Part shown: positions 1 to 47,912 of the stretch, in pieces | Layout of the letters: each line of letters begins with the position of its first letter | Position numbering within the stretch: the stretch's first letter is position 1 | From: Actinomycetota bacterium | GTDB taxonomy: Bacteria > Actinomycetota > Thermoleophilia > RBG-16-64-13 | NCBI GenBank assembly: GCA_012729575.1 | Contig: JAAYCW010000034.1 | Span: 1-48,554, forward strand | Length of the DNA stretch: 48,554 bases | Reading direction: 5' to 3' | Notes under the pieces: generated by a model | What the model saw: the letters and a program-made list of their open reading frames with translations, nothing else | What the model was told of the DNA's origin: nothing | Databases searched by the model: none | Translations under genes and position numbers: made by a program

Positions 1-73
1 CCTTCTGAGGGATACTGGCTCCTATGCTGGGGAACGAAGGCTGGGAGGCGATATTGCGTAGGAAACGTCGCTG

Positions 74-3203: not shown

Positions 3204-3303
3204 GGAGGGAGCCTGCCGAACTCGTTTAGCAATAAGCACTTCAGAGGAATATAAAATACCTGGGAAAGCGGAACCTATCGAGGTGGCACAAGGGGGAATC
3301 AGT

Positions 3304-3591
3304 ATGCCTACCTACATCGTCCTCACCACTCTTACCGATGAAGGTCGCAAGACACTCCGAGACAACCCAGGCCGTATCAGAGAGGTCAACGCCGAGATGG
3401 AGGCCATGGGGGTCACCCTCAAAGACCAATACGCCCTGTTCGGCCCCTACGACTTCGTCAACGTTCTGGAGGCTCCGGATGACGCGGTCCTGACCAAGAC
3501 GCTTATGCAGTTGGCCTCCAGGGGAACCGTCTCCACCCTTACTCTGCCGGCCACGCCCACGGAGGATTTCATCGCCAGGCTGGAACACTGA
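3304..3591 (+). CDS. GYD domain-containing protein
   Basis: MPTYIVLTTLTDEGRKTLRDNPGRIREVNAEMEAMGVTLKDQYALFGPYDFVNVLEAPDD is typical of the GYD family. ATG at 3304 inside ORF 3124..3591. Confidence 0.85.
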   Translation: MPTYIVLTTLTDEGRKTLRDNPGRIREVNAEMEAMGVTLKDQYALFGPYDFVNVLEAPDDAVLTKTLMQLASRGTVSTLTLPATPTEDFIARLEH

Positions 3592-3602
3592 GGGGAGCCC
3601 GC

Positions 3603-3632
3603 GGTCGGGGTCTCCTGGTAGAGACCCCGACC
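3603..3632 (+). terminator. Rho-independent-like hairpin downstream of the GYD gene
   Basis: Perfect 12-bp inverted repeat ggtcggggtctc-ctggta-gagaccccgacc just after the GYD stop codon; short T content downstream. Confidence 0.6.
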
Positions 3633-3726
3633 TTGTCACCAGCTCCCTCGGGACCGCACGTAGGCCGGTGTGTTCCGTCGGGTGCGGGAGCTTTGAAGGC
3701 CTGAGTACACGCCGAAAGGAGTCGAG

Positions 3727-7092: not shown

Positions 7093-7103
7093 GGAGGGCG
7101 GCG

Positions 7104-18681: not shown

Positions 18682-18692
18682 GTGGAGGAGAT

Positions 18693-20537: not shown

Positions 20538-21151
20538 TGACCGCTCGTCCTACCACAAACGTACTTCTTACCGGAGTCGGGGGCCAGGGAGTCGTTCTGG
20601 CCAGTTATGTGCTCAGCCAAGTGGCCATGAGCGAGGGCTACGACGTCAAGCAGAGTGAAGTCCACGGCATGGCTCAGCGCGGTGGCAGTGTTACCAGCCA
20701 CTTCCGCTTTGGCGACAAAGTCTGGTCTCCTCTGGTGTCCCCGGGCACCGCCGATCTCCTCATGGCCTTTGAAGCGCTTGAAGGTCTGCGATACGTCAAC
20801 TGGCTGAAGCCGAATGGTGTGCTTGTGTATAACGCCTTGCGCATCAACCCCAGCCCTGTTTCTGCGGGCCTGGCTACCTACCCGGAAGACGTTGACTCCC
20901 TTATAAGAGCGGCTTGGCCGACTGTCAAGTGTGTTAACGCCAATGAGTTGGCTGCGCAGGCGGGAACCGTCAAGGCCGCCAATGTCGCCATGCTCGGGGC
21001 CATCTCGGCCACCCTCCCGTTCGCTCCCGAGATATGGGAAGCGGTCATCCGCAAGGCCGTACCTCCGAAGACGATCGATGTCAATCTGGAGGCCTTCCGG
21101 CTGGGAGCCGCAAGCGCGTCAGCGCCCGCTGCGGAGTGTAAGACTCGGTAG
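20537..21151 (+). CDS. iorB: Indolepyruvate ferredoxin oxidoreductase subunit beta
   Basis: LLTGVGGQGVVLASYVLSQVAMSEGYDVKQSEVHGMAQRGGSVTSHFRFGDKVWSP; ATGA overlap with iorA. Confidence 0.92.
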   Translation: MTARPTTNVLLTGVGGQGVVLASYVLSQVAMSEGYDVKQSEVHGMAQRGGSVTSHFRFGDKVWSPLVSPGTADLLMAFEALEGLRYVNWLKPNGVLVYNALRINPSPVSAGLATYPEDVDSLIRAAWPTVKCVNANELAAQAGTVKAANVAMLGAISATLPFAPEIWEAVIRKAVPPKTIDVNLEAFRLGAASASAPAAECKTR

Positions 21152-25143: not shown

Positions 25144-25170
25144 CAGTGTCTCCTCAACGCAGACTTGCGA

Positions 25171-26142
25171 CTAGTAGGCGCGGCCTTTGGGCAGGATTGG
25201 TCTGTAGATGCCGACCTTGAGCACCCCGTACTTGAGCGAGAAGGCTCCGATCGTATGGCAGATGATCGCGAAGACGAGCAGTCCTGTTGACGCCTCTTCT
25301 CCCGTGAAATAGCTGACGACGGAGACCACCAACGGTACGATGATGCCCAGCAGTACTATGCCCAGCCAGAAGACCCAGGCCACGCGCCCGCGGACCAGTT
25401 CTTTCACCGATAATTCGGCCGTGGCCGACTGGTAATTCGCGTTGACCAAGTACATGATGATCAGCAGGGCGTTGACGATCAGCAAGATGCGCGTGGCCGA
25501 CTCTGCGGTAGGGATGACATCCTCGCCAGTGACCATCCCGACTCCCATGATGAGCGCCAATCCGTCCGCCACTCCCATGAGTAGGAACACGATCGGCAAC
25601 AGTCCTGTGTTCCAGAAGGGAACGCTTTTGCAGTAGCTCATGGCGAATCCGCAATACACGGCGGTCATCACGCCGAAGATGCCGGCCAGAACCATGAAGA
25701 CGTAGTTGGCCGCCCACACGCCGGAACTATCGGCCACATCGTAGGCGATGAGACCCTGCAGGATGAGTTGAATGGCCCCGAAGACCAAGAAGATCATGGT
25801 CATCACGATACCGCGGGCGAACCATGAGGTCCGCCACGCCTTACTGAATGGTGGGAAGGCCCTCCAGAAGCGGTACCACTTTCCAAGGTAGAAGGCGTGC
25901 AATGGCAACTTGAAGATCGCGATGCCGATCCAGCCGAGGATGCCTGCCCAGAAGGCTGTGACGGCGAATTCCTCCCGAAGGGCAAAGAAGATGGACACCA
26001 AGTAGAGGCCGGTGCCGAGGGCCGAGAAGACCTCAGCCCACCAAACCAGCAATCCTTTCCCAGAGATCCACTCGGTCTGAGCCATGGGCTTGATCATCCA
26101 CTCGTGGGTGACCATCCATTGACGGGCTGTCCGTGCGTTCAT
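25171..26142 (-). CDS. NrfD/PsrC-like integral membrane subunit
   Basis: About 8-9 TM helices, located between the 4Fe-4S subunit and the Mo catalytic subunit; WWAEVFSALGTGLYLVSIFF, AWRTSWFARGIVMTMIFLVFGAIQL. Confidence 0.75.
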   Translation of the reverse strand: MNARTARQWMVTHEWMIKPMAQTEWISGKGLLVWWAEVFSALGTGLYLVSIFFALREEFAVTAFWAGILGWIGIAIFKLPLHAFYLGKWYRFWRAFPPFSKAWRTSWFARGIVMTMIFLVFGAIQLILQGLIAYDVADSSGVWAANYVFMVLAGIFGVMTAVYCGFAMSYCKSVPFWNTGLLPIVFLLMGVADGLALIMGVGMVTGEDVIPTAESATRILLIVNALLIIMYLVNANYQSATAELSVKELVRGRVAWVFWLGIVLLGIIVPLVVSVVSYFTGEEASTGLLVFAIICHTIGAFSLKYGVLKVGIYRPILPKGRAY

Positions 26143-26158
26143 ATAAGCACTCCCCTAC

Positions 26159-26932
26159 CTAGTCCGCATTCTTCTTGGCAAGTTTCTCTTTGGATGGAGC
26201 GTAGACGGAGCTCAGATGCTGGATGTGGCTGCCGGTCTGCGCTTCGATAGGCGCCTTGTTGGACGGCGCGCCTCCCAGCTTGTAGTCGATGTAGTAGACG
26301 GAGGGCTCTGTGCCGTATTCGTCGTGGAGTACAAACCCGTTCTTCTCCCGGATCAGCTTGGAAACGTTGCTATTCGGATCGTCCAGATCGCCGAAGGTCA
26401 GAGCCCGGGCCTGGCAGATGTTCACACAAGCGGGGGTGGCTTCACGGTCGATTCCCGGTTTCAGTCCTTTGGCCAACCCGGCGTCAATGCGCTCCATGCA
26501 GAAGTTGCATTTCTCCGTGGTGCCTACCTGATGAGGGTAGATCTGCTTTCCCTTCTTCTCGAACCCGGTCTTGGCGTGCTCGGGGAAGTAATTGGGGTTG
26601 CGCTTGCGCGATAGATAGGTGCGGTTCTGATACGGGCAGGCGATGACGCAGTACCGGCAGCCGAAGCATTTGTTTGAGTCGATGGCTACGATGCCGTCCT
26701 CACGTTTGTATGAAGCCTCGGTAGGGCAGACCTCGACGCAAGGCGCCTCTTTGCACTGGTTGCAGCGGACCGGGTACGTGGAAACGTCGACGCTGAAGCC
26801 GTCATCGGTTTCAAGAGCTATCAGCCGCGGCCAGGTCATGCGCAACGGGAGGAAGTGCTCGATCCGGCACGCGGCGATACACCCGTGGCATCGGGTGCAC
26901 TTCGCAAGGTTGATGACCATACCCCATCTCAT
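26159..26932 (-). CDS. 4Fe-4S ferredoxin electron-transfer subunit (PsrB/DmsB-like)
   Basis: CTRCHGCIAACRIEH, CNQCKEAPCVEVCPTEASYKREDGIVAIDSNKCFGCRYCVIACPYQNRTY, CNFCMERID...CVNICQARALTFGDLDDP. Confidence 0.92.
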   Translation of the reverse strand: MRWGMVINLAKCTRCHGCIAACRIEHFLPLRMTWPRLIALETDDGFSVDVSTYPVRCNQCKEAPCVEVCPTEASYKREDGIVAIDSNKCFGCRYCVIACPYQNRTYLSRKRNPNYFPEHAKTGFEKKGKQIYPHQVGTTEKCNFCMERIDAGLAKGLKPGIDREATPACVNICQARALTFGDLDDPNSNVSKLIREKNGFVLHDEYGTEPSVYYIDYKLGGAPSNKAPIEAQTGSHIQHLSSVYAPSKEKLAKKNAD

Positions 26933-27663: not shown

Positions 27664-28623
27664 GTGGAACTAGATGACGTCAAGAAAGTAGCGATCTATG
27701 GTGCGGGCACCATGGGGCCCGGCTTGGCCCAAGTGTTTGCCTCTGCCGGATATGACGTGACCATGTATTCGCGCAAGCAGGAGACTCTTGAGAAGGCCAT
27801 GAGGGTCACGAAGGCAAATCTGGACACTTTTGTCGAACAAGGGTTGACCTCCAAAGATGCAGTTCCCACTATCCTCGCGCGCATCAAGACTACCCAGTCG
27901 GTCGAAGAAGCGGCGGTAGACGCCGACTTCGTCATCGAGACCATCGCAGAGAAGTTGGATGCCAAGAACGCGCTGTACGTAGAACTCGATCGCCTCCTAC
28001 CCGAAGAGACCATCATCACCAGTAACACCTCTTACCTCAACATCTATGAAGTGATGCCGGCGGCAAGGCTTCCGTATACGGTTATCGCCCACTGGTTCGC
28101 CCCCCCGCACATCGTCCCGTTGGTCGAGGTGGTCAAGGGCCCGGAGACCGCTCAGAAGACCGTAGATCTGATCGTGGAACTCCTCAAGACAGTGGAAAGA
28201 GTGCCTACCGTACTAGAGAAGTTCGTGCCCGGGTTCTGCATAAATCGTTTCCTGCGGATCATCGGTCGCGAGATCTTCTTCCTGCTAGATAACGGCTATA
28301 TGACCGCTGAGCAGCTCGACCTGGCCGTCAAGGCCAGCATCATCCCTCGGGCGATGGTCCTGGGCTTCGTCCAACGGTATGACTTCACCGGCATCGATCT
28401 GAGCTATGGCAACCTGCAGAACCCCAACTTCATCGAGCCGCCCATCGACAACAATCCCCGCAGCCTTGCGGAACTGATGGAGAAGGGTGAACTTGGAGTC
28501 AAGAGCGGCAAGGGCTTCTTCGACTACAGTGACCGGCCCCTGGAGCAGGTCTTGAAGGAACGCGATGCCGCTCTCATCAGAGTGTTCGAGGACGTCAAGG
28601 ACCTCATCTACAAGCGCATATAG
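27664..28623 (+). CDS. 3-hydroxyacyl-CoA dehydrogenase-family NAD-dependent dehydrogenase
   Basis: VAIYGAGTMGPGLAQVFASAGYDVTMYSR Rossmann motif; ITSNTSYLNIYEVM; AHWFAPPHIVPLVEVVKG (His/Glu dyad spacing retained); GKGFFDYS. Confidence 0.9.
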   Translation: MELDDVKKVAIYGAGTMGPGLAQVFASAGYDVTMYSRKQETLEKAMRVTKANLDTFVEQGLTSKDAVPTILARIKTTQSVEEAAVDADFVIETIAEKLDAKNALYVELDRLLPEETIITSNTSYLNIYEVMPAARLPYTVIAHWFAPPHIVPLVEVVKGPETAQKTVDLIVELLKTVERVPTVLEKFVPGFCINRFLRIIGREIFFLLDNGYMTAEQLDLAVKASIIPRAMVLGFVQRYDFTGIDLSYGNLQNPNFIEPPIDNNPRSLAELMEKGELGVKSGKGFFDYSDRPLEQVLKERDAALIRVFEDVKDLIYKRI

Positions 28624-28651: not shown

Positions 28652-29506
28652 ATGAAGCTACCAGCCGGCAAGGTGATCGTGACGGCGGCGCTCGACGGAG
28701 CGATGGTCACGAAAGAGATGAATCCCAACGTGCCGGAGCAGCCGGACGAACTCGCCCAGGCGGCGCTCGACTGCTACAACGCGGGGGCTGCCATCGTACA
28801 TATCCACGCGCGTGACGAGCAGGGCAAGCCGACCGGGACCAAGGAGAAGTTCGAAGAGATCCTGGCTGCTGTTCGTGGCAAGTGCAAAGACATCATCATC
28901 CAGTTCTCAACGGGCGGCGGAGCCAATCTCACCATCGAGGAGCGGGTCCGGTGCTTGGACGCCCTCCCCGAATCCGCCTCTTTGAACATGGGCACCCTTA
29001 TGCGCCAGACCGGGCCCTACGCCGGCCAGCCTTTTGCAAACCTGACCAAGGACATTGAAGCCTGGGCAACCAAGATGAGGGAACTCGGCATCAAGCCTGA
29101 GATGGAGTGCTACTCACAGAGCATGTACCGGGATGTCAACAACCTGATCAAGAAGAATCTGATCAATCCTCCGTACTACGTCAACATCGTACTGGGGATG
29201 CAGTACCAGGGCGCTATGGAGGCTACACCCGAAGCGCTGAACTCCATGATCGAGTTTCTTCCGCAGGAGTGCTACTTCAACTGTTGCGCTACTGCTGCCG
29301 CACAGTTGCCCATCACGACAATGTCGATGATCAGGGGCGGCGCGATCCGCGTCGGGCTGGAGGACAACATCTATTACTCTCGAGGCGTCTTGGCCGAGAG
29401 CAACGCACAGTTGGTGGAGCGTTCGGTGCGCATCGCCCGCGAACTCAATATCGAGCCGGTCTCTCCCGACGAAGCCCGGGAGATCCTGGGCATAGACAAA
29501 CGCTGA
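28652..29506 (+). CDS. Beta-keto acid cleavage enzyme (BKACE/DUF849 family)
   Basis: KVIVTAALDGAMVTKEMNPNVPEQPDELAQAALDCYNAGAAIVHIHARDEQGKPT; IRGGAIRVGLEDNIYYSRGVLAESNAQLVER. Confidence 0.93.
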   Translation: MKLPAGKVIVTAALDGAMVTKEMNPNVPEQPDELAQAALDCYNAGAAIVHIHARDEQGKPTGTKEKFEEILAAVRGKCKDIIIQFSTGGGANLTIEERVRCLDALPESASLNMGTLMRQTGPYAGQPFANLTKDIEAWATKMRELGIKPEMECYSQSMYRDVNNLIKKNLINPPYYVNIVLGMQYQGAMEATPEALNSMIEFLPQECYFNCCATAAAQLPITTMSMIRGGAIRVGLEDNIYYSRGVLAESNAQLVERSVRIARELNIEPVSPDEAREILGIDKR

Positions 29507-29570
29507 GACCCCGGCTCACACACGCAGGCCGATGGGGAGCTTTGGACCGCGAAAGGATGGTGGCTGGATC

Positions 29571-30344
29571 ATGGATGACCTGTTCTCCCTGAAGGGTAAG
29601 AACACCGTGGTGGTGGGCGGAGCCGGTGGCATCGGCCGGGGCCTCGCGAAGGGGTTCGTACAGTATGGGGCCCAGGTGGCCATCGCCGATATCAACGAAG
29701 CTTCGCTGGAGACAGCTGCGCAGGAGATCGAGGAGGCCACCGGCCAGAAGGTCTTGACCTATACGGTCGACACCGGAGAAGAGGGCAACGTGCAGGACCT
29801 GGTGGCGAGGGCTGTCGCCGACTTGGGCCGCGTTCACGTGCTCGTCAACGCGCAGGGTTTCAACACCAAGGCCCCGGCGACGGAGTTCCCGCTGGCCGAC
29901 TGGGACAAGTTGTTCAATGTGAACGTCCGTGGCGTCATGCTTTGCTGCAAGCATTTCGCGGCGCACATGGCCGAGCAGGGGGGCGGTAAGATCATCAACC
30001 TGTCCTCCATCCGAGGCGCACGTGCAGCTCTGGGCGGCAATCTGGCATATTGCGCCAGCAAGGGTGCCGTGAACATGATCACGAAGCAGCTGGCGGTTGA
30101 ACTGGCTTCCCGGAAAGTCTTGGTCAACGCCATCGCTCCGATCATCACTATCACCCCCATGACTGAGGAGCGGGTTAGGCGGGAGGCCGACCGGTATGAG
30201 AAGATGTTGGTCAACGTTCCCATGGGACGCATGGGTACCGTGGCCGATCTCGTGGGGCCGGCAGTTTTTCTGGCCTCACCGGCTGCCGACTTCGTGACCG
30301 GGACGATTCTCTACCCCGACGGCGGTACCATGTCATTCGTGTAG
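29571..30344 (+). CDS. SDR-family oxidoreductase
   Basis: LKGKNTVVVGGAGGIGRGLAKGFVQYGAQVAIADIN; YCASKGAVNMITKQLAVELA. ATG 29571 downstream of the ORF-track start. Confidence 0.92.
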   Translation: MDDLFSLKGKNTVVVGGAGGIGRGLAKGFVQYGAQVAIADINEASLETAAQEIEEATGQKVLTYTVDTGEEGNVQDLVARAVADLGRVHVLVNAQGFNTKAPATEFPLADWDKLFNVNVRGVMLCCKHFAAHMAEQGGGKIINLSSIRGARAALGGNLAYCASKGAVNMITKQLAVELASRKVLVNAIAPIITITPMTEERVRREADRYEKMLVNVPMGRMGTVADLVGPAVFLASPAADFVTGTILYPDGGTMSFV

Positions 30345-32439: not shown

Positions 32440-33366
32440 GTGTCGATCAAGTACAGGATCTTTCTCCACAGCTACCTTGGCTTCAATAGCAATTCCACCC
32501 TTTTCTACGGGGAGCGGGATGCCATTCTGATCGACACATCCCAGCTGCTGAGCGATGCCCACAGGATGGTCGCCGAGATGATCCCGCTGAGGAAGAACCT
32601 GACACACATATATGTGTCGCACTTCCACCCTGACCACCACTTCGGACTCGCGGTTCTCACTGCGGCTTTTCCGCGGGCGAAGGTCGTGGCTCTGCCGAGT
32701 GTGGTCAAAGACGTGGTCTTCACCTCCAGTGACAAGGTGGACATGTGGGCCATCGATCGCTTCGGTCCTGATATACCGGATAGGACCACTATCCCCAGGC
32801 CAATGCAGGAGCCCCGTCTTGAGCTGGAGGGACACGAGTTGCTGTTCTCCGACGGATGGGAAGGCGACAGCGTGAACAACTCCGTCGTCTGGGTGCCCTC
32901 GATCGGTGTCGTTTGTGCAACCGATGTGGCTTTTCACGACTGCAACTTGTGGCCTATCGAGAGCAACGTTGAGCGGCGGATCAGATGGCGCAAGGACATT
33001 AGGAGACTCATGGACTTCGATCCGCGCATCGTCATCCCCGGCCATCATGACGAGGCGAAGCTGGCGGTGCTCGAGGAGGTGCAAGAAGACCCCTCCCGCT
33101 CCTACACAGACTGTGTTGATTGGTCGGTCGAGTATCTCGACGTTTATGAGGATGCTTACAACCACGCGAAAGACGGTGCCGATCTGGTCGATCGGATGAA
33201 CAAGTACTACGGTGACGTCAAGGCGGAGGACTTCGCTCTCCACTGGCAGGCGAGGCTCTTGTTCCCACGTAGTTGCCCGGATTGGTTCACCCCTTTGCCG
33301 GGCGAGCCCGGTAGAATCTTCCTAAACCCAGCCGGCGGATACGACGGTGATCCGCCCAGAGAATAG
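32440..33366 (+). CDS. MBL-fold metallo-hydrolase
   Basis: YVSHFHPDHHFGL (HxHxDH motif); VIPGHHDEAKLAV. Confidence 0.85.
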   Translation: MSIKYRIFLHSYLGFNSNSTLFYGERDAILIDTSQLLSDAHRMVAEMIPLRKNLTHIYVSHFHPDHHFGLAVLTAAFPRAKVVALPSVVKDVVFTSSDKVDMWAIDRFGPDIPDRTTIPRPMQEPRLELEGHELLFSDGWEGDSVNNSVVWVPSIGVVCATDVAFHDCNLWPIESNVERRIRWRKDIRRLMDFDPRIVIPGHHDEAKLAVLEEVQEDPSRSYTDCVDWSVEYLDVYEDAYNHAKDGADLVDRMNKYYGDVKAEDFALHWQARLLFPRSCPDWFTPLPGEPGRIFLNPAGGYDGDPPRE

Positions 33367-33377
33367 GGGGCTTGAAC

Positions 33378-34193
33378 ATGCAGCTCGAAGGCAAGGTAGC
33401 GCTTATCACAGGTGGTGGGACGGGCATCGGTGCCGCGGTCACCGAACGGTTCGTGGCCGAAGGTGCGAAGGTGTGCATCACCGGCCGGCGGCGGGAGAAG
33501 CTGGAGGAGGTCCAGAAGTCACTGCCGGCCGGTAGCGTGAGCTTGTTTGCCGGAGATGTCTCCGGAGAGGGGAACGCGCCGCGGATGGTAGATACCGCTC
33601 TCAAGTTCACAGGGAAGCTGGACATTCTGGTCAACAACGCAGCAATCGAGATCAACAAACCCGTTGTCGACATGGATCCGGCCGACTGGCGTCAGATGCT
33701 CGAGGTGAATCTGACCGGACCTTTCCTGATGATGCAGGCGGTCATCCCCCGAATGATTGAAGGAGGCGGTGGGTCGATAATTAACGTGTCCTCCCTGGCA
33801 GGGGTAGTAGCAGTGCCCGGCGGGCCGGCCTACTGTACGACCAAAGCCGGTCTGATCCACTTCAGCAAGCAGGTAGCGCTGGACTACGGCAAGCAGAACG
33901 TCCGCTGCAACGCGGTGTGTCCGGGTCCCGTGCGCACGAGCATGCTCGAGTCGAACTTCAAGCCGATGGCCGAGGTGCTTCGGACCGACATGGACGGCGT
34001 CTTCGAGAAGATGGGCACCCATGTACCCATCGGATATGCCGCTAGGCCTGCCGATGTGACCGGCTTGTTTGTGTTCCTGGCGAGCGACGATTCGAAGTTC
34101 ATGACGGGCTCGACCCTTCTCATCGACGGCGGTGTTCACTTTGTCGATTCGTTCGCGGCCGCCATCGGTCAGTACGGTGCCAGTTGGGCGTAG
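33378..34193 (+). CDS. SDR-family oxidoreductase
   Basis: LEGKVALITGGGTGIGAAVTERFVAEGAKVCITGRR; NNAAIE; YCTTKAGLIHFSKQVALDYG. Confidence 0.92.
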   Translation: MQLEGKVALITGGGTGIGAAVTERFVAEGAKVCITGRRREKLEEVQKSLPAGSVSLFAGDVSGEGNAPRMVDTALKFTGKLDILVNNAAIEINKPVVDMDPADWRQMLEVNLTGPFLMMQAVIPRMIEGGGGSIINVSSLAGVVAVPGGPAYCTTKAGLIHFSKQVALDYGKQNVRCNAVCPGPVRTSMLESNFKPMAEVLRTDMDGVFEKMGTHVPIGYAARPADVTGLFVFLASDDSKFMTGSTLLIDGGVHFVDSFAAAIGQYGASWA

Positions 34194-36416: not shown

Positions 36417-37235
36417 CTATTTGGTGAGTGCGATATCTCCCAGGTTCACGTCCTTCTCGGTGTTGATCTCCTCGAGCGTCTTCGGCGCGAATCCATCGGC
36501 CGAGATCTCCAGCTTGTACGTATCTCCCTCGGCCAACCCCTCGAACCAGAAGTCCCCGAAACCGTCGGTGGTGACGCTCCAATTGCCGCCGTTGCCGTCG
36601 GTCAGAGCACAGGCCGCGCCTTCGACGATCTCCTTGGTGATGGGATCGTACACAGTACCGCCGATGAACTTCTTCGGGATGTTGAGGTAGTACACCCGCG
36701 GCTTGGCACCCAGTTCCGGCTTCAGGACTTCTGCCTCGGCGATCTCGGCGGCGAAATCGCCCTCTTCGCCGAACTTCAGGGCCTCGGTGGGGCAGGCGTC
36801 CACACACCGGGGGACCGTCCATTCGCCGCCATCGAGGAGGTGAGCGCACCCGGTGCACTTCTGCGCCAGGTTGAGATCGTCATTGAAGTAGATGGCGCCA
36901 TAGGGGCAGACGTCGACGCAAAGCCGGCACCCGGTGCACTTCAGCGAATCGATGATGACGAGTCCATCTTCCCGCTTGTAGATGGCTCCCTCGATCGGGC
37001 AGGGGGGAATGCACGGAGCTTCGTCGCAGTGCATGCATGGATTGGCGATGTAGTGCATCTTGACTTTGGGCACGGTGCCGCGAATGTGCTCGTCGAGCCT
37101 CATCCAGAACTGACCGGTGTCAGGCTGGGGCTTCGCGATCGGGGACCAATCGTTGCCGACGTGCTCGTCTTTGCAGACGAACTGGCAGGCGTAGCAACCC
37201 ACGCACAGGTTGACGTCCATAACGAAGACCTTCAT
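36417..37235 (-). CDS. 4Fe-4S small subunit with C-terminal transthyretin/Cna-B-like domain (transhydroxylase AthS-like)
   Basis: CVGCYACQFVCKDEHVGNDW; CMHCDEAPCIPPCPIEGAIYKREDGLVIIDSLKCTGCRLCVDVCPYGAIYF; C-terminal GAACALTDGNGGNWSVTTDGFGDFWFEGLAEGDTYKLEISADGFAP. Confidence 0.88.
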   Translation of the reverse strand: MKVFVMDVNLCVGCYACQFVCKDEHVGNDWSPIAKPQPDTGQFWMRLDEHIRGTVPKVKMHYIANPCMHCDEAPCIPPCPIEGAIYKREDGLVIIDSLKCTGCRLCVDVCPYGAIYFNDDLNLAQKCTGCAHLLDGGEWTVPRCVDACPTEALKFGEEGDFAAEIAEAEVLKPELGAKPRVYYLNIPKKFIGGTVYDPITKEIVEGAACALTDGNGGNWSVTTDGFGDFWFEGLAEGDTYKLEISADGFAPKTLEEINTEKDVNLGDIALTK

Positions 37236-39859
37236 TTGTCGCCCTCCTCGATCCAAGCGTCGAAGCGTAACCCGGCACCGGGGTCGTACTTCCTCGCGAA
37301 GGCCTCGGGGTAGTCCCTGCGCCACTCTTCCCATTCTTCGTTCTTGACCTTCTGCACATCGACCAAGTAGCCGCTTGTAGCTTGACCGACCGCGTTCTTG
37401 GACGTGATCCCGTTCGGTGCGATGGTGTTGATCGCTCCACCACGGCAGACCTTACCGGGGACCAACGGGTCATGTCGGGAGCCATGGTCGACGTACACAA
37501 CGCCGGGCTTTATCCTCTCCCAGACGCGTGCTCCCACGAGCACGATACCGCGCTCGTTAAAGATCTTGACCACGTCGCCGTCCTTGATGCCCCGAGGTTC
37601 CGCGTCGACGGGATTGATCCAGATAGGCTCGTACTTGTAGCCGTCGAATCCGAGCACCTTTCCTGTCGGGGTCTCACGTGCCCAACTGTTGTCGTCGCCC
37701 TGCGCATGTGTGCGCCAGCGCGGGTGATTCGAGACCAGGAGTAGCGGGAACATGGCCGCACGCTCGCTGGACAGGGCCTCGTCGTGGGTCTCGCCCTTCT
37801 CGATCCATTTCGGGAAGGGAGGACGCTCTTTATCATCGGGGAAGTGCTGGGCCAACCGCTCGGAATAGAACTCCAGAAGGCCGCTCGGGGTCTTCAAGGG
37901 GTTGTTCTTGGGGTCTATATAGAACTTGCGGAACCCCGGCGAGTCTTCCTCCCAATCAGTCGCCGTCTTGTACACGTAGGTCTTCTTCTCGTAGAAGTCC
38001 TCCCACGTGGTGAGGTTGTCGAGGTGCATGCTATCGAAGACCAGTTTCTGAAGGTCGAGCGTGGTCATACCCGTGGTAAATTCGTCGTAGAGTCCCAACT
38101 TCTCGGCGATAGCCGCCACGATCTCGTAGTCGCTCTTGGACTCACCGATCGGTCGAATAGACTGCTCCTGGATGGAGACGCTGGCGAAATGTGGTCCCTG
38201 ACGGGTGGTGGTGACGATATCCTCGACCTCGAGAGTCGTGTTGGCCGGAAGGATGATGTCGGCATAGAGACAGTCGTTCTCCAACCACGGATGCTGGGCA
38301 ACAACGCATTCGATGCTGGGGTCTTTCATGGCTTCTATCGTCCAGTTGCCGTGGTTCCAGCAGGTGATGCGGCAGGGAGTGTCTGTCCAGATCATGTGGA
38401 TCCGTACCCCGCCCTTATCCTTGGAAATGGGGTACGTGTACCGATCGAACTGCTCCTCAGTGGGGCTCTCCTGGCCGCCGGCGCCGTGGAAGACCAAAGG
38501 CGGCTTCAGGATGGCGTCCTGGATGAGGGTCTTGGGGATGAGCTGTGGACCCCAGGAGTGGACCGTGGTCCAGCAAGGCTTGGTGAGCCGCTCGGGCAGT
38601 TCGGGATTGAAGAAGCGGATACTGCCCAAGCCCTCCGCTCGTGGCATGCCGAAATAGGTCATCTGGCATTGATGGACTCCGGGCTTACCCAGTCCCTGCA
38701 TCCCGAGCAGGATGCACTCCAGCCGCCCCGGTTCGTGCGAGTACGGACCGCGGAACGCCGAGCCCCCGAAGTAGTGGATGATGGAGGTGGTGTTCTTGGC
38801 GAACTGCCTGGCAAGGGCCTTGATGGTCCACTCCGGTACGCCGCACTTGGGCGCAGCCCATTCAGGAGTCTTGGGGATGCCCTCCTCGTCCTCGCCGAGG
38901 ACGTAGGCGGCCACCTTGTCCATACCCACAGCGTGAGCGGCGACATACTCCTTGTCCCAGGTGTCCTCAGTCAGCCACACATAGATGATGGCCAACTGTA
39001 GCGCGGCGTCGGTGTTAGGCAGCACGGGGATCCATTTGTCGGCGTGCACCGCCGCAGCGTAGTTGAGGTCCGGGCAGATGTAGATCTGTTTGATGCCTGC
39101 TCGGGTCCAGAACTGCGAGATACGGCTGGCGTACTGGCCCGTGAAGCCCCAGGGCGTGGTCTCCTCATCGCACCCCCACTTAAGGACCAGGTCGGCATGC
39201 TCAGAGATGTCCTTGATGAGGTTTGCTGCGGGGGACATCATGCCTTGGAAGCCTTGACCCCATACATGCTTGGCCCCCCAGTACCAGCCCTCCCAGCTAT
39301 CCGGATTGCGGACCTGCTGGGTGAAGCCTCCCATCATGTCGAGCAATCGGGCCTGGTGGCCATGAGGAGTATGGATGGTCTTGCATTCCCCGTGACCGTC
39401 CCCCTGAGCAAGGATGGCGAGGGGCCCGTACTCCTTGTGGACCCGCCGTATCTCAGAGGCGATGATGTCGGTGGCTTCGTCCCAGGAGATCCTCTTGTAC
39501 TTGCTCTTGCCCCGATTCTGTGTGTTGCGTTCTCCATCGGGGTCCCAGTCGACCCGCTTCATGGGGAACTTGATGCGGTTAGGTGAGAACGTCCTCTTCT
39601 TGTAGGCGAGAGAGAAGGGAGCAGGAAGGGCCTTGGGTAGAGGCTGTAAGGTCTCGCCGTTACGCTCGATCTTCCATGGTCTGAGTGATTGGAAATCGTA
39701 TTTCCAGTCGTACTTGAGAGGCCTGATCCGAACGGCCTTGCCGTCCTTCACGTCGACGAAGCATTCCCCCCCGCCTCCGAGCAGACCACCCATCGCTAGG
39801 TTCTTGATGGTGACCTTGTCGACACTTACGTCGACCTTCTTGCGTTCCTCGTCTGCCAT
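37232..39859 (-). CDS. Mo-bisPGD large subunit, pyrogallol-phloroglucinol transhydroxylase/catechol dehydroxylase-like paralog
   Basis: 875 aa; FPMKRVDWDPDGERNTQNRGKSKYKRISWDEATDIIASEIRRV; NPDSWEGWYWGAKHVWG; overlaps its small-subunit gene. Confidence 0.85.
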   Translation of the reverse strand: MADEERKKVDVSVDKVTIKNLAMGGLLGGGGECFVDVKDGKAVRIRPLKYDWKYDFQSLRPWKIERNGETLQPLPKALPAPFSLAYKKRTFSPNRIKFPMKRVDWDPDGERNTQNRGKSKYKRISWDEATDIIASEIRRVHKEYGPLAILAQGDGHGECKTIHTPHGHQARLLDMMGGFTQQVRNPDSWEGWYWGAKHVWGQGFQGMMSPAANLIKDISEHADLVLKWGCDEETTPWGFTGQYASRISQFWTRAGIKQIYICPDLNYAAAVHADKWIPVLPNTDAALQLAIIYVWLTEDTWDKEYVAAHAVGMDKVAAYVLGEDEEGIPKTPEWAAPKCGVPEWTIKALARQFAKNTTSIIHYFGGSAFRGPYSHEPGRLECILLGMQGLGKPGVHQCQMTYFGMPRAEGLGSIRFFNPELPERLTKPCWTTVHSWGPQLIPKTLIQDAILKPPLVFHGAGGQESPTEEQFDRYTYPISKDKGGVRIHMIWTDTPCRITCWNHGNWTIEAMKDPSIECVVAQHPWLENDCLYADIILPANTTLEVEDIVTTTRQGPHFASVSIQEQSIRPIGESKSDYEIVAAIAEKLGLYDEFTTGMTTLDLQKLVFDSMHLDNLTTWEDFYEKKTYVYKTATDWEEDSPGFRKFYIDPKNNPLKTPSGLLEFYSERLAQHFPDDKERPPFPKWIEKGETHDEALSSERAAMFPLLLVSNHPRWRTHAQGDDNSWARETPTGKVLGFDGYKYEPIWINPVDAEPRGIKDGDVVKIFNERGIVLVGARVWERIKPGVVYVDHGSRHDPLVPGKVCRGGAINTIAPNGITSKNAVGQATSGYLVDVQKVKNEEWEEWRRDYPEAFARKYDPGAGLRFDAWIEEGDK

Positions 39860-39938: not shown

Positions 39939-40742
39939 CTAGTACGTAGGTTCTCTCGGGTTCCATCCCAGGTAGGCAGAGAACGAAGCAGCGGCTGCCT
40001 TGACAGCCTCGGTGCAACGGGCGCTCTCGGCCGGTCCGAAGCGACCCGTCGGTACTACTACAGAAATGGTAGCCGCGATGGCTCCGAACTGGTCGCGGAC
40101 AGGAGCGCCGACTGCGCAAAGCCCCATGTAGCGGCCCTCGATGTCGTAGGCCACGCCCTCTCTCGCCACCTGTTCCAGTTCGGCGGCCAGCACGTCGCGG
40201 TCCGTGATCGTGTGTGGGGTCTCTTTGGGAATGGGCCTAGCCAGGATGGCCTCTCTATCCTGGGGAGACTTGAAGGCGGCGAAGATCTTTCCATGGACGG
40301 TCGCTATATCGCCCAGGATGCGTCCGGGTGCGGTTCGGCGCTTAAACGGACGAGAGGTGTTTATGATGTCGACGCAGACAGGAAACCCGTCGACCTCCAC
40401 AGCCAGGGTGACCGACTCGCCGGTCTCTTCAACCAGCGCTCGGAGGAAGGGCCTTGCCGAGTCGATGAAAGCCGATTGATCGTCGGCGACATAGCACAAA
40501 GCCAGTGCAGCCGGTCCCAAACGATAACGGTTGCTCGCGGGGTCGCGGACAAGAAAGGCCATGGATTCAAGGGTTCGCACCATCCGGTAGGCAGTCATGC
40601 GAACCAGACCGGTCTGCTCGGCTATCTCATCGACCGTCCATTCGCGGTGGTCCACATCGAACAGTCCGAGAACCAGCAGCCCGCGAGTCAGCGCTCTAAC
40701 CGAGAGGGGATCAGTCTCTCGCGATCCGTTGCTCTCCGACAT
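39939..40742 (-). CDS. IclR-family transcriptional regulator
   Basis: VRALTRGLLVLGLFDVDHREWTVDEIAEQTGLVRMTAYRMVRTLESMAFLVRD; close paralog of the IclR at 30376-31194. Confidence 0.92.
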   Translation of the reverse strand: MSESNGSRETDPLSVRALTRGLLVLGLFDVDHREWTVDEIAEQTGLVRMTAYRMVRTLESMAFLVRDPASNRYRLGPAALALCYVADDQSAFIDSARPFLRALVEETGESVTLAVEVDGFPVCVDIINTSRPFKRRTAPGRILGDIATVHGKIFAAFKSPQDREAILARPIPKETPHTITDRDVLAAELEQVAREGVAYDIEGRYMGLCAVGAPVRDQFGAIAATISVVVPTGRFGPAESARCTEAVKAAAASFSAYLGWNPREPTY

Positions 40743-40836
40743 CCTTCCCCCATTGGCGTATGCTGAGCGTGGAGCCGAGCGTCTGTCTTGCAAATCAGTT
40801 GTACCTACTCTACGATACTAGCAGTATTACGGAATA

Positions 40837-40848: not shown

Positions 40849-40901
40849 CGTTTTATCCCCCAAATCACGACCATCTTTGGTCACATGGGAGCTGATGCTT
40901 G

Positions 40902-43430
40902 ATGGCTGAAAAGGTGTTCTCGAGTTGCACGAACAGCGGACCGGTATCGGTCTACGTCAAGGACGGCAAGATCGTCCGCATCCGTCCCTTGGTCGTGGAC
41001 GAGAAGGATTTCAAACCCTGGGTCATCGAAGCCGGTGACAAGAAGTATTCTCCTCCGAAGAAGGTCACTCTCTCTCCGTACATCCATGCCGAGCGGCGGC
41101 GGATCTACTCCGATGAGCGCATCAGGTACCCCATGAAACGCGTGGACTTCGATCCGAATGGTGAGCGGAACCCTCAGAATCGGGGCAAGTCTCGGTACGA
41201 GCGGATCTCGTGGGACGAAGCAGCCACGTTGGTCGCGAACGAGCTCACCCGCGTGAAGGAGACCTACGGCGGCTCGGCCATCAGCGGTATCACCTCCTCA
41301 CACCATAACTGGGGCATCGTCGGCTACAAGATGGGCCCGTTCGCCCGGTTTCTCAACATGATGGAAGGGACCCCGGTGCTGGATAATCCCGACAGCTGGG
41401 AAGGGTGGCATTGGGGAGCGACTCACAGCTACGGCTTCTACTGGCGCCTCGGCATGCCCGAGCCGTACGACATGCTGGGTGACGCCCTGCAGAACGCGGA
41501 GATGATCATCTACTGGTCCAACGACCCGGACAGCACCCGGGGCACCTACTCGGGTCAGGACTCCGCTCTGTGGCGGCAGTGGCTGAAGGAGAAGGGCGTG
41601 AAGATGGTCTTCATCGACCCCTTCTACAACTACACCAACGCCGTGATGGGCGGCAAGTGGATCGTACCGCGCATGGGTACAGACACTGCCTTGGCCATGG
41701 CCATAGCCTTCGTGTGGATCACTGAAGACATATACAACAAGGACTATGTGGCGAACCGTACCATCGGTTTCGATGAGTTCAAGAAGTACGTGCTCGGCGA
41801 GATCGACGGCGTCCCTAAGACCCCCGAGTGGGCTGAGGAGGAGTGCGACGTTGACGCTCGTGTCATCCGCACCCTGGCCCGGGAGTGGGCCGCCAAACGC
41901 ACCATCCTCTCCGGCGGCTCCCGCGGTGGAGAGGGAGGGGCCTGCCGGCAGGCCTACGCCACCGAGTGGGCCCGGATGATGGTCCTCCTGCAGGCCATGC
42001 AGGGGCTGGGTGCGCCGGGGCGTAGCATCTGGGGTACCACGATGGGAGCTCCCAACAACACCACGCATTGGGTGCCCGCCTATGGCGAGCCTCAAGGCCG
42101 GATATCGATGGCGACCAAAGTGGCCAAGTACGTTCCGACCAATCCCAACCCGCAGCGCCTATGGCGTCTCACGGTGCCTGAGGCTATCCTCGATCCGCCC
42201 GTGGAGTGGTACGGAGAGGGCTTCTGCGGGCAGAGTCTCGAGCAGCAGTTCAAGCACTTCGTCTATCCCGCCCCCGGTTGCTCGGAGATCAAGCTGTGGT
42301 ACCGGTACGGCGGTTCCTTCATGGGGACGATGAGCGACACCACCAAGTGGGTGCGGATGTATCAGAGTCCGAAACTCGAGTTCGTGGTGAATCAGGATAT
42401 CTGGTGGAATAGCGAGACCCGCATGGCCGACGTGATTCTGCCGGCCTGCACCAACTTCGAACGGGACGATCTGGGTGAGTGGGCCGCCGTCAACGGCTAC
42501 ACCTGGCACGCCAGCAGCGGCTGCAACTACCGCGTGGTCGTCCGCGAGCAGAAGTGCATCGAGCCCTTGTGGGAGTCGAAGTCCGACTACGAGATATTCG
42601 CCCTGATCTTCGAGAAAATGGGGATGCGGGATCTCTACACCGACGGTGGCAAGACCGACGTCGACTGGGTGAAGGGCTTCTTCGACGCTTGTGATCTGCC
42701 CAAGCTGGTCAGCTGGGAGGAGTTCAACGCGAAGGGCTACCACATCATCAACATCGAGGATGACTACAAGCCCACTCCGGGTCTGCGCTGGTTCTATGAT
42801 GGGCGGCCCTGCGATACTCCGGACGTGGGCAATGCGAAGCGCCTCGATCCAGAGAAGTCGGGAGAGCTTGGGACCTTCAGCGGCAAGATCGAGTTCGTTT
42901 CGGAGAGCTTGAAGCAGTACTTTCCCGATGACGAAGAGCGCCCTGTGGCGCCGCGCTACATCCGAAGCTGGGAGGGGTACGGCACGCCCGGTCTGTACGA
43001 GAAGTACCCGTTGCAGCTTCTATCGCCGCATCCGCGCTTCAGCTTCCACTGCCATTACGACAAGCACACCGACTGGCTGAACGATATTTCCGTCCATCGC
43101 ATCAAGAAGGACGGCCACCCCTGGTGGCCGGCGCGCATCAATCCGGAGGATGCTGCGGAGCGGGGCATCAACACCCACGACATCGTGCGGCTGTACAACG
43201 ACCGGGCTTCTGTACTCTGTATCGCCGTGGTCACCGGGCGGGTGCGGCCCGGAGTGATACACAGCTATGCGTCCTCAGCTATGTATGACCCCCTACAGCC
43301 CGGTGAACCGGATTCTATAGACAGAGGCGGGTGCGTCTCCATGCTGACCCCGTCGCGGATGCTCTCGAAGAACGTACCGGGCATGACGCCGAATTCCTGC
43401 CTTATCGAGATCGAGAAATGGGAGGGCTGA
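40902..43430 (+). CDS. athL: Pyrogallol hydroxytransferase (pyrogallol-phloroglucinol transhydroxylase) large-subunit-like Mo enzyme
   Basis: SVYVKDGKIVRIRP; YPMKRVDFDPNGERNPQNRGKSRYERISWDEA; SSHHNWGIVGYKMGPFARFLNMM; NPDSWEGWHWG; LSPHPRFSFHCHYDKHTDWLNDI, as in Pelobacter-type transhydroxylase recalled from knowledge. Confidence 0.85.
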   Translation: MAEKVFSSCTNSGPVSVYVKDGKIVRIRPLVVDEKDFKPWVIEAGDKKYSPPKKVTLSPYIHAERRRIYSDERIRYPMKRVDFDPNGERNPQNRGKSRYERISWDEAATLVANELTRVKETYGGSAISGITSSHHNWGIVGYKMGPFARFLNMMEGTPVLDNPDSWEGWHWGATHSYGFYWRLGMPEPYDMLGDALQNAEMIIYWSNDPDSTRGTYSGQDSALWRQWLKEKGVKMVFIDPFYNYTNAVMGGKWIVPRMGTDTALAMAIAFVWITEDIYNKDYVANRTIGFDEFKKYVLGEIDGVPKTPEWAEEECDVDARVIRTLAREWAAKRTILSGGSRGGEGGACRQAYATEWARMMVLLQAMQGLGAPGRSIWGTTMGAPNNTTHWVPAYGEPQGRISMATKVAKYVPTNPNPQRLWRLTVPEAILDPPVEWYGEGFCGQSLEQQFKHFVYPAPGCSEIKLWYRYGGSFMGTMSDTTKWVRMYQSPKLEFVVNQDIWWNSETRMADVILPACTNFERDDLGEWAAVNGYTWHASSGCNYRVVVREQKCIEPLWESKSDYEIFALIFEKMGMRDLYTDGGKTDVDWVKGFFDACDLPKLVSWEEFNAKGYHIINIEDDYKPTPGLRWFYDGRPCDTPDVGNAKRLDPEKSGELGTFSGKIEFVSESLKQYFPDDEERPVAPRYIRSWEGYGTPGLYEKYPLQLLSPHPRFSFHCHYDKHTDWLNDISVHRIKKDGHPWWPARINPEDAAERGINTHDIVRLYNDRASVLCIAVVTGRVRPGVIHSYASSAMYDPLQPGEPDSIDRGGCVSMLTPSRMLSKNVPGMTPNSCLIEIEKWEG

Positions 43431-43434
43431 GATC

Positions 43435-44274
43435 ATGGCGCGTCTGAGCCTACTGATCGATGTGACCAAGTGTAGCGGGTGCCACAACTGTTTCTTGGCC
43501 TGCCGTGACGAGTTCTACGGTAACGACTACACCCCCTACTCCGCTCCCCAGCCTCTTGAGGGGCAGTTCTGGATGCAGATCAAGGAAGTCGAGCGGGGCA
43601 CCTATCCAAAGCCGAAGTTGGACTACATACCGCTCCCTTGTTTGCACTGTGAGGAGGCGCCCTGCGTAGCGGCGGCTGCGGATGGGGCTGTGTACCGCCG
43701 CGCAGACGGAATCGTGATCATCGATCCCGAGAAGGCCAAAGGGCAGAAGGACATCGTGAATTCCTGCCCGTATCGGGTGATCTTCTGGAACAAGGAACTC
43801 GAGATCCCCCAGAAGTGCACTCTTTGCGCCCACCGGCTGGACGAAGGTGAGAAACAGCCCCGTTGCGTGGAAGCCTGCCCTACGGGTGCCCTTGTATTCG
43901 GCGATCTGGACGATCCGGAGAGTGAGATCGCGAAGCTCTCGGCCTCTCTGGATGTGGAGGTCTATCATCCCGAGTATGCTTCTCTGCCGACGGTCAAGTA
44001 TGTCGGTATCCCCAAGCGCTTCATTGCGGGTGAGGTAGTACGTCGGGACGTTCCAGGCGAGTGTGCCGAGGGGGTGAAGGTCACGCTCGAAGGCGGTGGT
44101 GTCAGTTTGGAGACCCTGTCCGACAGCTACGGCGATTTCGAGTTCGACGGGTTGGAGAAGAACACCGATTATCGAGTGGGCGTCGAGTGCGATGGCTATG
44201 CGCCGATGATCATTGAGGTCTCCACGCAGACGGATGTCGATCTGGGGGAGATCGTTCTCGAACCGTTCGACTGA
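43435..44274 (+). CDS. athS: Transhydroxylase small-subunit-like 4Fe-4S protein with C-terminal beta-domain
   Basis: LLIDVTKCSGCHNCFLACRDEFYGNDY; RGTYPKPKLDYIPLPCLHCEEAPCVAAAADGAVYRRADGIVIIDPEKAKGQKDIVNSCPYRVIFWNKELEIPQKCTLCAHRLDEG; C-terminal GGVSLETLSDSYGDFEFDGLEKNTDYRVGVECDGY. Confidence 0.87.
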   Translation: MARLSLLIDVTKCSGCHNCFLACRDEFYGNDYTPYSAPQPLEGQFWMQIKEVERGTYPKPKLDYIPLPCLHCEEAPCVAAAADGAVYRRADGIVIIDPEKAKGQKDIVNSCPYRVIFWNKELEIPQKCTLCAHRLDEGEKQPRCVEACPTGALVFGDLDDPESEIAKLSASLDVEVYHPEYASLPTVKYVGIPKRFIAGEVVRRDVPGECAEGVKVTLEGGGVSLETLSDSYGDFEFDGLEKNTDYRVGVECDGYAPMIIEVSTQTDVDLGEIVLEPFD

Positions 44275-44332: not shown

Positions 44333-45529
44333 ATGGAAGAAGTAGTAGTTGTAAGTGCGGTGAGAACAGCGGTTGGCAAACTAGGCGGCGGTCTGAGAGA
44401 CGTCGAGCCGGAAGACCTGGCGGAGCTAGTCATCCGGGAGGCCATGGCACGGGCGCGTGTCGAGCCGGGCGAAGTCGATGAGGTGATCATGGGCCAGGCC
44501 AAACAGAGCGCCGATGCGGCCAACCTAGCCCGGGTAGCGGCGCTGAAAGCCGGTATACCGGTAGAGGTACCCGCCTACACCGTCATGCGTCAGTGCGGAT
44601 CGGGTCTTCAGAGTGTGCATAACGCTGCTCAGGCCATCATGATCGGTGAAGCCGACATCGTTGTGGCCGGCGGTGTCGAGAGCATGAGCAAGGCTCCCTT
44701 TTACTTGAGGGATGCCCGCTATGGCTATCGCGCGGGTAACGGTCTGCTGCTTGACTCCAACACCGAGAGCCAGCCCAGGTCTCAGCCTTACGAAGTGTAC
44801 GGCGATCTCACTATGGGGTTGACCGCGGAAAACCTGGCGGAGCGGTACGGCATCACCCGCGAAGAGTCGGATGCTTTCTCTTTGCAGAGTCAGGAGCGTG
44901 CATTCGCGGCCATCGAGTCGGGACGGTTCAAAGACGAGATCATCCCGGTGGAGATCAAAAAGAAGAAGAGCACCGTGGTCTTCGACACCGATGAGCATCC
45001 GCGCAGAAGCACCCTAGAGGGCTTGGCCGCTCTGCCGCCTGCGTTCAAGAAGGGTGGTCAGGTGACTGCCGGGAACTCGTCCGGTCGTAACGATGGGGCG
45101 GCTTGTACCGTGGTCATGTCGGCCAAGGAAGCGGGCAGACGGGGCATCAAGCCGATGGTGGTGATTCGTGGCATGGGTGTGGCGGGAGTGTCGCCGGACA
45201 TCATGGGCCTGGGACCGGCCCCCGCTTCGCGCCTCGCTCTTAAGCGGGCAGGTCTGACCTTTGACGATATGGGCCTCATAGAACTGAACGAGGCCTTTGC
45301 GGCGCAGTCTCTGTCGGTCATCAAGGAACTGAGCATCGGAGACCGCATGGACGTCCTCAATGTGAACGGGGGGGCCATCGCTCTCGGCCATCCGATCGGA
45401 TGCTCGGGCGGCCGGGTTTTTACCACGCTGCTCTATGAGATGCAGAAGCGGGGCACGCGTTACGGTCTTGCCACGCTGTGCATCGCAGGCGGCCAAGGCA
45501 TTGCCACGGTGGTGGAAGCAGCCAATTAG
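44333..45529 (+). CDS. Acetyl-CoA C-acetyltransferase (thiolase)
   Basis: MEEVVVVSAVRTAVGKLGGGL; VMRQCGSGLQSVHNAAQ; NVNGGAIALGHPIGCSGGRVFTTLLYEM; ATLCIAGGQGIATV. ATG 44333. Confidence 0.93.
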   Translation: MEEVVVVSAVRTAVGKLGGGLRDVEPEDLAELVIREAMARARVEPGEVDEVIMGQAKQSADAANLARVAALKAGIPVEVPAYTVMRQCGSGLQSVHNAAQAIMIGEADIVVAGGVESMSKAPFYLRDARYGYRAGNGLLLDSNTESQPRSQPYEVYGDLTMGLTAENLAERYGITREESDAFSLQSQERAFAAIESGRFKDEIIPVEIKKKKSTVVFDTDEHPRRSTLEGLAALPPAFKKGGQVTAGNSSGRNDGAACTVVMSAKEAGRRGIKPMVVIRGMGVAGVSPDIMGLGPAPASRLALKRAGLTFDDMGLIELNEAFAAQSLSVIKELSIGDRMDVLNVNGGAIALGHPIGCSGGRVFTTLLYEMQKRGTRYGLATLCIAGGQGIATVVEAAN

Positions 45530-46619: not shown

Positions 46620-47912
46620 ATGCGAATCGACGTACCCTGGGGCACGGGGACGACCTCTGTTGAGTTGGATGCCGAACGGGTTACGGGCGTATTGGGGGCG
46701 AATGTCGCGACGGCCGACGATCCCGAGGAGATCTTGCGAGTGGCCATCTCGCGGCCGGAAAGTGATATGCGGAGCTTCCTGGCTCGGGCGGCCTCTCCCC
46801 TTGTTGTGGTGGTCAACGACGCGACCCGCCCTACGCCGTCGGCCGACGTTCTTCGCGTATTACGCGCCGATCTTGAGGAGTGGCTTGAACCCCCGGGTAG
46901 GGAGTTGGCCTTCGTCATAGCCACCGGGACTCATCGAGCCGCACTCCCTGAGGAGATCGATCGCATCTTTGGCAAAGAGTTCGTCGATGCCCACGCCGGA
47001 CGGATCTTCTCGCACGATTCCAAGGACAAGACACGGTTGGTGCATCTGGGGCCGACAAAGCGCGGGGTCCAGGTGTGGGTGAACCGGCTCCTGGCGGATG
47101 CCCGCAGCGTGCTGCTCATCAACTCCGTGGAGCCGCACTACTTCGCGGGTTACACGGGGGGACGTAAGTCGCTCTTTCCGGGATTGGCCGGCTATGAGAC
47201 AGTGTGGGCCAATCACAGCCTGTCAATGGAGGCCGGGTCGGAACTCCTCGCCCTGAGTGGCAATCCGGTCCACGAGGATCTCCAGGATGAGCTCGCTCTC
47301 GGTGTTCGGGGCAAGAGCGTCTACTCTATACAGCTCGTGCTCGATAAGGACCACCGGGTGGGCTTCGCGGCCGCGGGCGGGTTGGACGATACGTTCGGTC
47401 GGGCCGTGGCGGTGGCGGACAAACAGTTCGTCCTTGAGATCGACCGTCGTGTCGACTTGGTGGTGGCGGTCGCTCCTCATCCCATGGACTGCAATCTCTA
47501 TCAGACCAACAAGGCCATCCAGAGTGGAGCTTTGGCCGTCAGCGACGGGGGCATACTGATCGTGGTTTCTGAATGCCCGTTCGGTCTGGGGGAGAACCAG
47601 ACTCTCTTCGATATGCTGGCGGCAGCGGACTCGCCCGCTGAGGCGCTTGAGCGGGCCAAACGGCAGGAGTACATCTTGGGAGTCCAACAGGCGGCTCGGA
47701 TCGCCACCATCCTCGAACGGGCCGAGATCTGGACTGTCAGCACGCTTAGAGATGAGGATGTGCGGGCCATGTTCATGACGCCCTACCGCGACCTGCAAAT
47801 CGCCGTGGACCGGGCCCTGCAGCAGAAGGGACCGGAGGCGCAAGTCCTGTTCCTTACAGAGGCGAGCATCACTGTACCTCGGGTGAGGGAGGACCGTCAG
47901 CAGGACACCTGA
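46620..47912 (+). CDS. LarA-family (nickel-pincer lactate racemase-like, DUF2088) protein
   Basis: VVVVNDATRPTPSADVLRVL; VIATGTHRAALPEE; HYFAGYTGGRKSLFPGLAGYETVWANHSLSM. Confidence 0.87.
   Translation: MRIDVPWGTGTTSVELDAERVTGVLGANVATADDPEEILRVAISRPESDMRSFLARAASPLVVVVNDATRPTPSADVLRVLRADLEEWLEPPGRELAFVIATGTHRAALPEEIDRIFGKEFVDAHAGRIFSHDSKDKTRLVHLGPTKRGVQVWVNRLLADARSVLLINSVEPHYFAGYTGGRKSLFPGLAGYETVWANHSLSMEAGSELLALSGNPVHEDLQDELALGVRGKSVYSIQLVLDKDHRVGFAAAGGLDDTFGRAVAVADKQFVLEIDRRVDLVVAVAPHPMDCNLYQTNKAIQSGALAVSDGGILIVVSECPFGLGENQTLFDMLAAADSPAEALERAKRQEYILGVQQAARIATILERAEIWTVSTLRDEDVRAMFMTPYRDLQIAVDRALQQKGPEAQVLFLTEASITVPRVREDRQQDT

Follow-up and report, generated by a model that had tools for sequence, protein, structure and literature searches.

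This analysis asks whether the gene pair at positions 40,902 to 44,274 of contig JAAYCW010000034.1 from an Actinomycetota bacterium, which resembles the pyrogallol-phloroglucinol transhydroxylase AthLS of Pelobacter acidigallici, encodes that enzyme or a different one. Transhydroxylases of this kind are molybdenum enzymes by which anaerobic bacteria shift hydroxyl groups between plant phenols. The whole 48,554-nucleotide stretch was analysed and is referred to as the window. In short, the pair was found to be a widespread new variant within a known enzyme family, which probably acts on a phenol other than that used by AthL. The two genes are as follows.

40902-43430, + strand: large subunit with a molybdenum-bis(pyranopterin guanine dinucleotide) (Mo-bisPGD) cofactor, divergent AthL-like, 842 amino acids from the ATG (phmmer, MAFFT alignment, upstream GGAG)
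43435-44274, + strand: small subunit, AthS-like, with 12 cysteines and a C-terminal beta-domain (phmmer, PF13247, weak PF13620, cysteine pattern)

The open reading frame of the large subunit opens at a TTG at 40899, with the ATG at 40902, and is separated by 4 nucleotides from that of the small subunit. Both are full-length, making the pair complete, and each is preceded by a Shine-Dalgarno-like GGAG. Using phmmer against the PDB, the large subunit matched chain A of 4v4c, the structure of P. acidigallici AthLS, with 863 bits (E = 1.4e-258), and the small subunit matched chain B with 227 bits (E = 2.5e-66). Given these E-values, the similarity of the two subunits to 4v4c is not due to chance. 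The second-best PDB match of the large subunit was dimethyl sulfoxide (DMSO) reductase, with 269 bits, and acetylene hydratase (2e7z) scored 50.8 bits. In the MAFFT alignment, the large subunit was 49% identical to AthL. RhL, the large subunit of resorcinol hydroxylase, and PgtL form one family of Ser-ligated molybdenum enzymes (PMC10100899). By its sequence the window pair is a member of this transhydroxylase/resorcinol-hydroxylase family: PgtL/AthL is by far its nearest solved relative and the Ser ligand is kept. The original prediction of a transhydroxylase-like pair was thereby confirmed at the level of the family.

Positions relevant to the active site and the substrate pocket were located by alignment to AthL, all on the + strand.

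41301-41303, +: His135, aligned to AthL His144
41328-41330, +: Lys144, aligned to AthL Arg153; Lys is a mark of the window subfamily
41391-41396, +: Asp165-Ser166, aligned to AthL Asp174 and the Mo-ligand Ser175
41931-41933, +: Glu345, aligned to AthL Trp354; Glu, Gln or Phe in the window subfamily
42081-42083, +: Tyr395, aligned to AthL Tyr404

The SSHHNWG motif lies at about 41295-41315, and within NPDSWEGWHWG the Asp and Ser codons (41391-41393 and 41394-41396) stand exactly where the prediction had placed them. The equivalents of AthL His144, Tyr152, Asp174, Ser175, Trp176, Tyr404, Phe468 and Tyr560 are all kept, including the Ser ligand in its DSW motif and His144, Asp174 and Tyr404, which we take to be the catalytic residues of transhydroxylase; the prediction had proposed that conservation of the Ser, His and Tyr be examined. 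Three positions are changed: Arg153 is replaced by Lys, Trp354 by Glu and Cys557 by Val. The AthL numbering is supported by the PDB sequence, in which all eleven residue numbers considered carried the expected letter.

The three-cluster fold and C-terminal beta-domain predicted for the small subunit were supported. Its 12 cysteines are arranged as in P. acidigallici AthS, from which three [4Fe-4S] clusters would naturally follow, and the alignment to AthS (phmmer) extends through the beta-domain. This domain matched PF13620 with 31.4 bits, just under the curated cut-off of 32.3.

Relatives of the large subunit are numerous. A single scan of species genomes yielded 340, and the best 80 of these were 59-89% identical to the window protein, each closer to it than AthL is. 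These 80 came from Actinobacteria, Desulfobacterota, Rhodospirillaceae, SAR324, Dehalococcoidia, Moorella, Sporomusaceae and rumen Firmicutes. The cultured Desulfopila aestuarii, Desulforhopalus singaporensis and Moorella sulfitireducens have copies 78%, 77% and 60% identical, respectively. Of 41 related genomes, 12 contained the family at a threshold of E <= 1e-100, most of these in several copies, with up to 22 in one genome and 10 in that of the window; orthologues of the window gene itself, 75-90% identical, were found in eight relatives. The earlier statement that such enzymes are unusual outside a few gallate fermenters does not hold.

Phylogenetic trees, which contained no authentic RhL sequence, separated the window type from AthL. 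In a tree of 33 proteins, one branch (support 98/98) set the window-type proteins apart, and grouping the window protein in a single clade with AthL and the three closest relatives of AthL was rejected (p-AU 1.3e-73); a wider tree of 110 rows agreed. Numbered as in AthL, position 153 is Lys in the window type and Arg in the AthL type, and position 354 is Glu, Gln or Phe in the former and Trp, Met or Leu in the latter. Because both positions change together, residues 153 and 354 are suggested to touch each other. Dehalococcoidia relatives mostly belong to an Arg153/Glu354 branch. Judged by these sequences, the window enzyme belongs to a widespread sister subfamily of AthL with altered pocket positions.

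A third group, of proteins of about 1000 amino acids, carries Trp or Tyr at position 153. Pairs of this type, of about 990 amino acids, occur on plasmids of Salipiger, Ensifer and Burkholderia (L137, L138, L139), where they adjoin VOC-family (possible dioxygenase) and fumarylacetoacetate-hydrolase genes and are perhaps an oxygen-dependent variant. Having emerged from a plasmid search as candidates for RhL, they were rejected as such, being aerobic enzymes accompanied by dioxygenase-like genes.

True AthL orthologues were found in the same lineage. Each of two congeners (G001 and G002) has a further, separate gene, with 78-79% identity to AthL and no difference from it at 13 pocket positions. 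In G002 the operon runs TAL, cupin, PGR, TfD, DPGC, AthL, AthS, IclR, followed by a second pair, and in G001 the same genes are spread over two contigs. Genomes of the host's family hold both sets, with a true AthL 76-79% identical to that of P. acidigallici and the window operon elsewhere. Since the congeners carry this separate gene and the joint clade was rejected, the window gene is not the AthL orthologue. Thus the predicted correspondence to the P. acidigallici enzyme stood for family and catalytic residues and failed for equivalence, given the separate subfamily, the pocket changes and the congeners' own AthL. A canonical phloroglucinol set is also present in the genome of the window, on another contig.

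Contig C29 (locus L130), 2-3945: canonical phloroglucinol set of DPGC (WPY motif), TfD, PGR and TAL

This contig terminates inside DPGC, the point where AthL follows in a congener, and contig C11 of the same genome holds an AthS fragment, IclR and a pair. The AthL operon of this genome is probably split between C29 (TAL to DPGC) and C11, with AthL itself in the assembly gap. The host genus, G012, Moorella and two rumen genomes combine an enzyme of the DPGC type with a window-type set. No close DPGC was found in G041, G042, G044-G046, G048 and G051, of which G044-G046 and G048 have the window-type set. Two sets per genome suggest two substrates; they could also be isozymes.

The genes surrounding the pair in the window, and a pair of hydrolases encoded elsewhere in the same genome, are listed below.

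27664-28623, + strand: 3-hydroxyacyl-CoA-dehydrogenase-family protein, candidate 3-hydroxy-acid dehydrogenase, TfD-like (PF02737/PF00725)
28652-29506, + strand: beta-keto acid cleavage enzyme (BKACE), candidate triacetate-lyase-like (PF05853, 312 bits)
29532-30344, + strand: SDR1, short-chain dehydrogenase/reductase (SDR), candidate ring reductase (PF13561; co-clusters with window-type AthL)
32440-34193, + strand: weak metallo-beta-lactamase-fold protein (32440-33366) and second SDR (from 33372), order kept in one congener
36417-39859, - strand: second AthLS-like pair, distant paralogue (large subunit 39%)
39939-40793, - strand: divergent IclR-type regulator (domain match, synteny)
44333-45529, + strand: thiolase directly downstream of the pair (Pfam Thiolase_N/C; reading frame listed from 44213, likely start ATG 44333)
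Contig C161 (locus L131), 923-3877: tandem cyclase-family hydrolases CycA and CycB, beside a saccharopine-dehydrogenase-like gene

The whole order from the TfD-like gene to the thiolase (TfD-like, BKACE, SDR1, metallo-beta-lactamase-fold, SDR, second pair, IclR, AthLS, thiolase) is the same in a congener, and the thiolase is kept next to the pair across clusters of Actinobacteria and Firmicutes. The second AthLS-like pair keeps the DSW motif, lacks an equivalent of Tyr404 and has a small subunit (36417-37334) with 16 cysteines; its type forms a clade of its own, with several copies per genome in the host lineage. In other phyla, genes for SDR1, a cupin, a thiolase and TRAP transport or a CoA ligase accompany the window-type enzyme, often together with TfD-like and BKACE genes; in Firmicutes and Desulfobacterota the subfamily is found beside a reductase, a dehydrogenase, a keto-acid cleavage enzyme and a thiolase of its own. 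Clusters of these phyla also hold tandem hydrolases CycA and CycB, 72-81% identical to the pair on C161; SDR1 and CycA/CycB occur together in window-type clusters of Desulfopila, Desulfobacula, Moorella, Sporomusaceae and others. CycA and CycB carry YPG/WPS motifs, in contrast to the WPY of DPGC in phloroglucinol operons, at which the substrate residues Trp20 and Tyr22 have been described (PMC10470551). Twelve loci with only the window type had the CycA/CycB pair and none of them a WPY enzyme, and all six loci with only clade-I enzymes, two counted by script and four read off individually, had WPY.

The metallo-beta-lactamase-fold protein was considered as a substitute ring-opener and set aside as the main candidate in view of the WPY-type DPGC on C29, CycA/CycB in other phyla and the lack of a PDB match. 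Trp at the position of KCE Glu14 was also rejected as a marker for triacetate lyases, since the enzyme on C29 has Trp but the same-operon enzymes of congeners have Met, as does the window BKACE.

Several other genes were observed around these clusters and in the window. In Firmicutes, window-type AthL is often immediately preceded by an acetylene-hydratase/catechol-dehydroxylase-like molybdenum enzyme (L102, 5345 and 11400; L071, 5356; L076, 5358; L081). A complex of quinone-linked type (22945-26932, - strand), made up of a molybdenum oxidoreductase and its FeS and NrfD subunits, lies just upstream of the TfD-like gene and is kept in relatives, and a LarA-family racemase-like gene (46620-47912, + strand) is kept downstream of the AthLS-thiolase block in the host lineage. 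An NDP-forming acyl-CoA ligase adjoins an indolepyruvate:ferredoxin-oxidoreductase-like pair (16507-21151, + strand), a possible route from acyl-CoA to ATP. Finally, an 840-amino-acid protein with five tandem cyclic-nucleotide-binding domains (3727-6249, + strand) is followed just downstream by an NfnAB-like flavoprotein pair (6262-8915).

Our preferred reading, of moderate confidence, is that the pair is a two-subunit, Ser-ligated Mo-bisPGD enzyme transferring hydroxyl groups, of a subfamily apart from AthL. Its substrate would be another polyhydroxybenzene, in place of pyrogallol or in addition to it, and the product would feed a second reductive ring-opening route. The polyhydroxybenzene would bind at the Ser-ligated Mo centre, where in the reshaped pocket the kept His, Asp and Tyr would move or add a hydroxyl group. 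The ring of the product would then be reduced by SDR1 and opened by CycA/CycB, the opened product oxidised by the TfD-like dehydrogenase, the C6 keto acid cleaved by BKACE with acetyl-CoA, and acetyl-CoA finally obtained by thiolysis through the thiolase. We infer the hydroxyl transfer, the order of the steps and the differing substrate from the sequences, in which family, catalytic residues, subfamily, pocket changes and partners are seen directly. More tentatively, and with somewhat more doubt than belief, the window-type enzyme could catalyse the first step of a so far undescribed anaerobic pathway for polyhydroxybenzenes, running alongside that of phloroglucinol in Actinobacteria, Desulfobacterota, Firmicutes and others, with the tandem hydrolases opening a ring other than dihydrophloroglucinol. 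Transhydroxylase activities on hydroxyhydroquinone have reportedly been described for Pelobacter massiliensis; we know of no gene for them, and the window type may correspond to one such activity.

Some points weigh against this proposal. The two sets might consist of isozymes acting on one substrate, as reductase, dehydrogenase and BKACE families are shared by both; CycA/CycB of this genome lie on C161, outside the window; the counted loci are related to each other, making the split between CycA/CycB and WPY an association and not a clean statistic; and the roles of Arg153, Trp354 and Cys557 in the pocket are presumed ones, based on crystal structure work. A divergent isozyme performing the AthL reaction, in which pyrogallol and 1,2,3,5-tetrahydroxybenzene yield phloroglucinol, would agree with the catalytic His, Asp, Ser and Tyr being kept, with partner genes drawn from phloroglucinol-pathway families and with the window type standing alone in some genomes. 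It is nevertheless unlikely in view of the separate subfamily with its altered pocket positions, cyclase partners that differ from DPGC, and close relatives in which a separate AthL-like gene adjoins the true phloroglucinol genes.

A role like that of resorcinol hydroxylase (RhLS), taking oxygen from water, passing electrons out via the small subunit and giving hydroxyhydroquinone-type products, appears quite improbable. The shared Ser-ligated family of RhL and PgtL, the three-cluster small subunit through which electrons could pass and the respiration of several hosts speak for it; on the other side, none of the genes noticed next to the window enzyme encodes a hydroxyhydroquinone dehydrogenase, reductive ring opening fits the partner genes, and the tree here includes no RhL sequence. 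That an ordinary S/N-oxide reductase or catechol dehydroxylase was mistaken for a transhydroxylase is hardly credible. General DMSO-reductase-family matches were obtained, but the scores of 269 and 50.8 bits for DMSO reductase and acetylene hydratase are set against 863 for AthL, all NCBIfam scores are far below their cut-offs, and the active-site residues agree with AthL.

Members of this family carry the annotation pyrogallol hydroxytransferase, and in sediments and peat they have been taken as signs that gallate or tannins are fermented (PMC3971608, PMC4959651). Should the majority fall into a separate subfamily that has partner hydrolases of its own, such readings would name the wrong substrate, and a widespread route by which phenols of plants or algae are degraded anaerobically would still await study. 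Positions 153 and 354 and the YPG/WPS versus WPY motifs are sequence marks by which this split can be tested.

Compared with known systems, the pair resembles P. acidigallici AthLS (4v4c) in its full-length two-subunit homology, Mo-ligand Ser, catalytic residues, 12-Cys small subunit and beta-domain, and differs in its 49% identity, other subfamily, Lys/Glu/Val at 153/354/557 and other partner hydrolases. With Azoarcus anaerobius resorcinol hydroxylase RhLS it shares the Ser-ligated RhL/PgtL family (PMC10100899). Acetylene hydratase is the closest characterised relative of catechol dehydroxylases (PMC7028382), and the large subunit is instead closest to AthL (50.8 bits to 2e7z versus 863 to 4v4c); the closer similarity that the original prediction had named as refuting it was not seen. 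As in the phloroglucinol pathway of Clostridium scatologenes (PMC10470551), the window has SDR, 3-hydroxyacyl-CoA-dehydrogenase and BKACE families, three partner families matching the characterised PGR, TfD and TAL, plus a thiolase. Unlike that pathway, no DPGC is present in the window: PF04199, the DPGC-type cyclase family, had no match on the window contig and no canonical phloroglucinol cluster lies beside the enzyme; the DPGC set is on C29 and window-type clusters elsewhere have CycA/CycB. AthLS-like pairs were annotated earlier in the Chloroflexi sediment genomes RBG-2, RBG-1351 and DEH-C11, with 2-3 copies each, and all were assigned to pyrogallol degradation (PMC3971608, PMC4959651), whereas the Dehalococcoidia relatives found here are mostly of the Arg153/Glu354 type.

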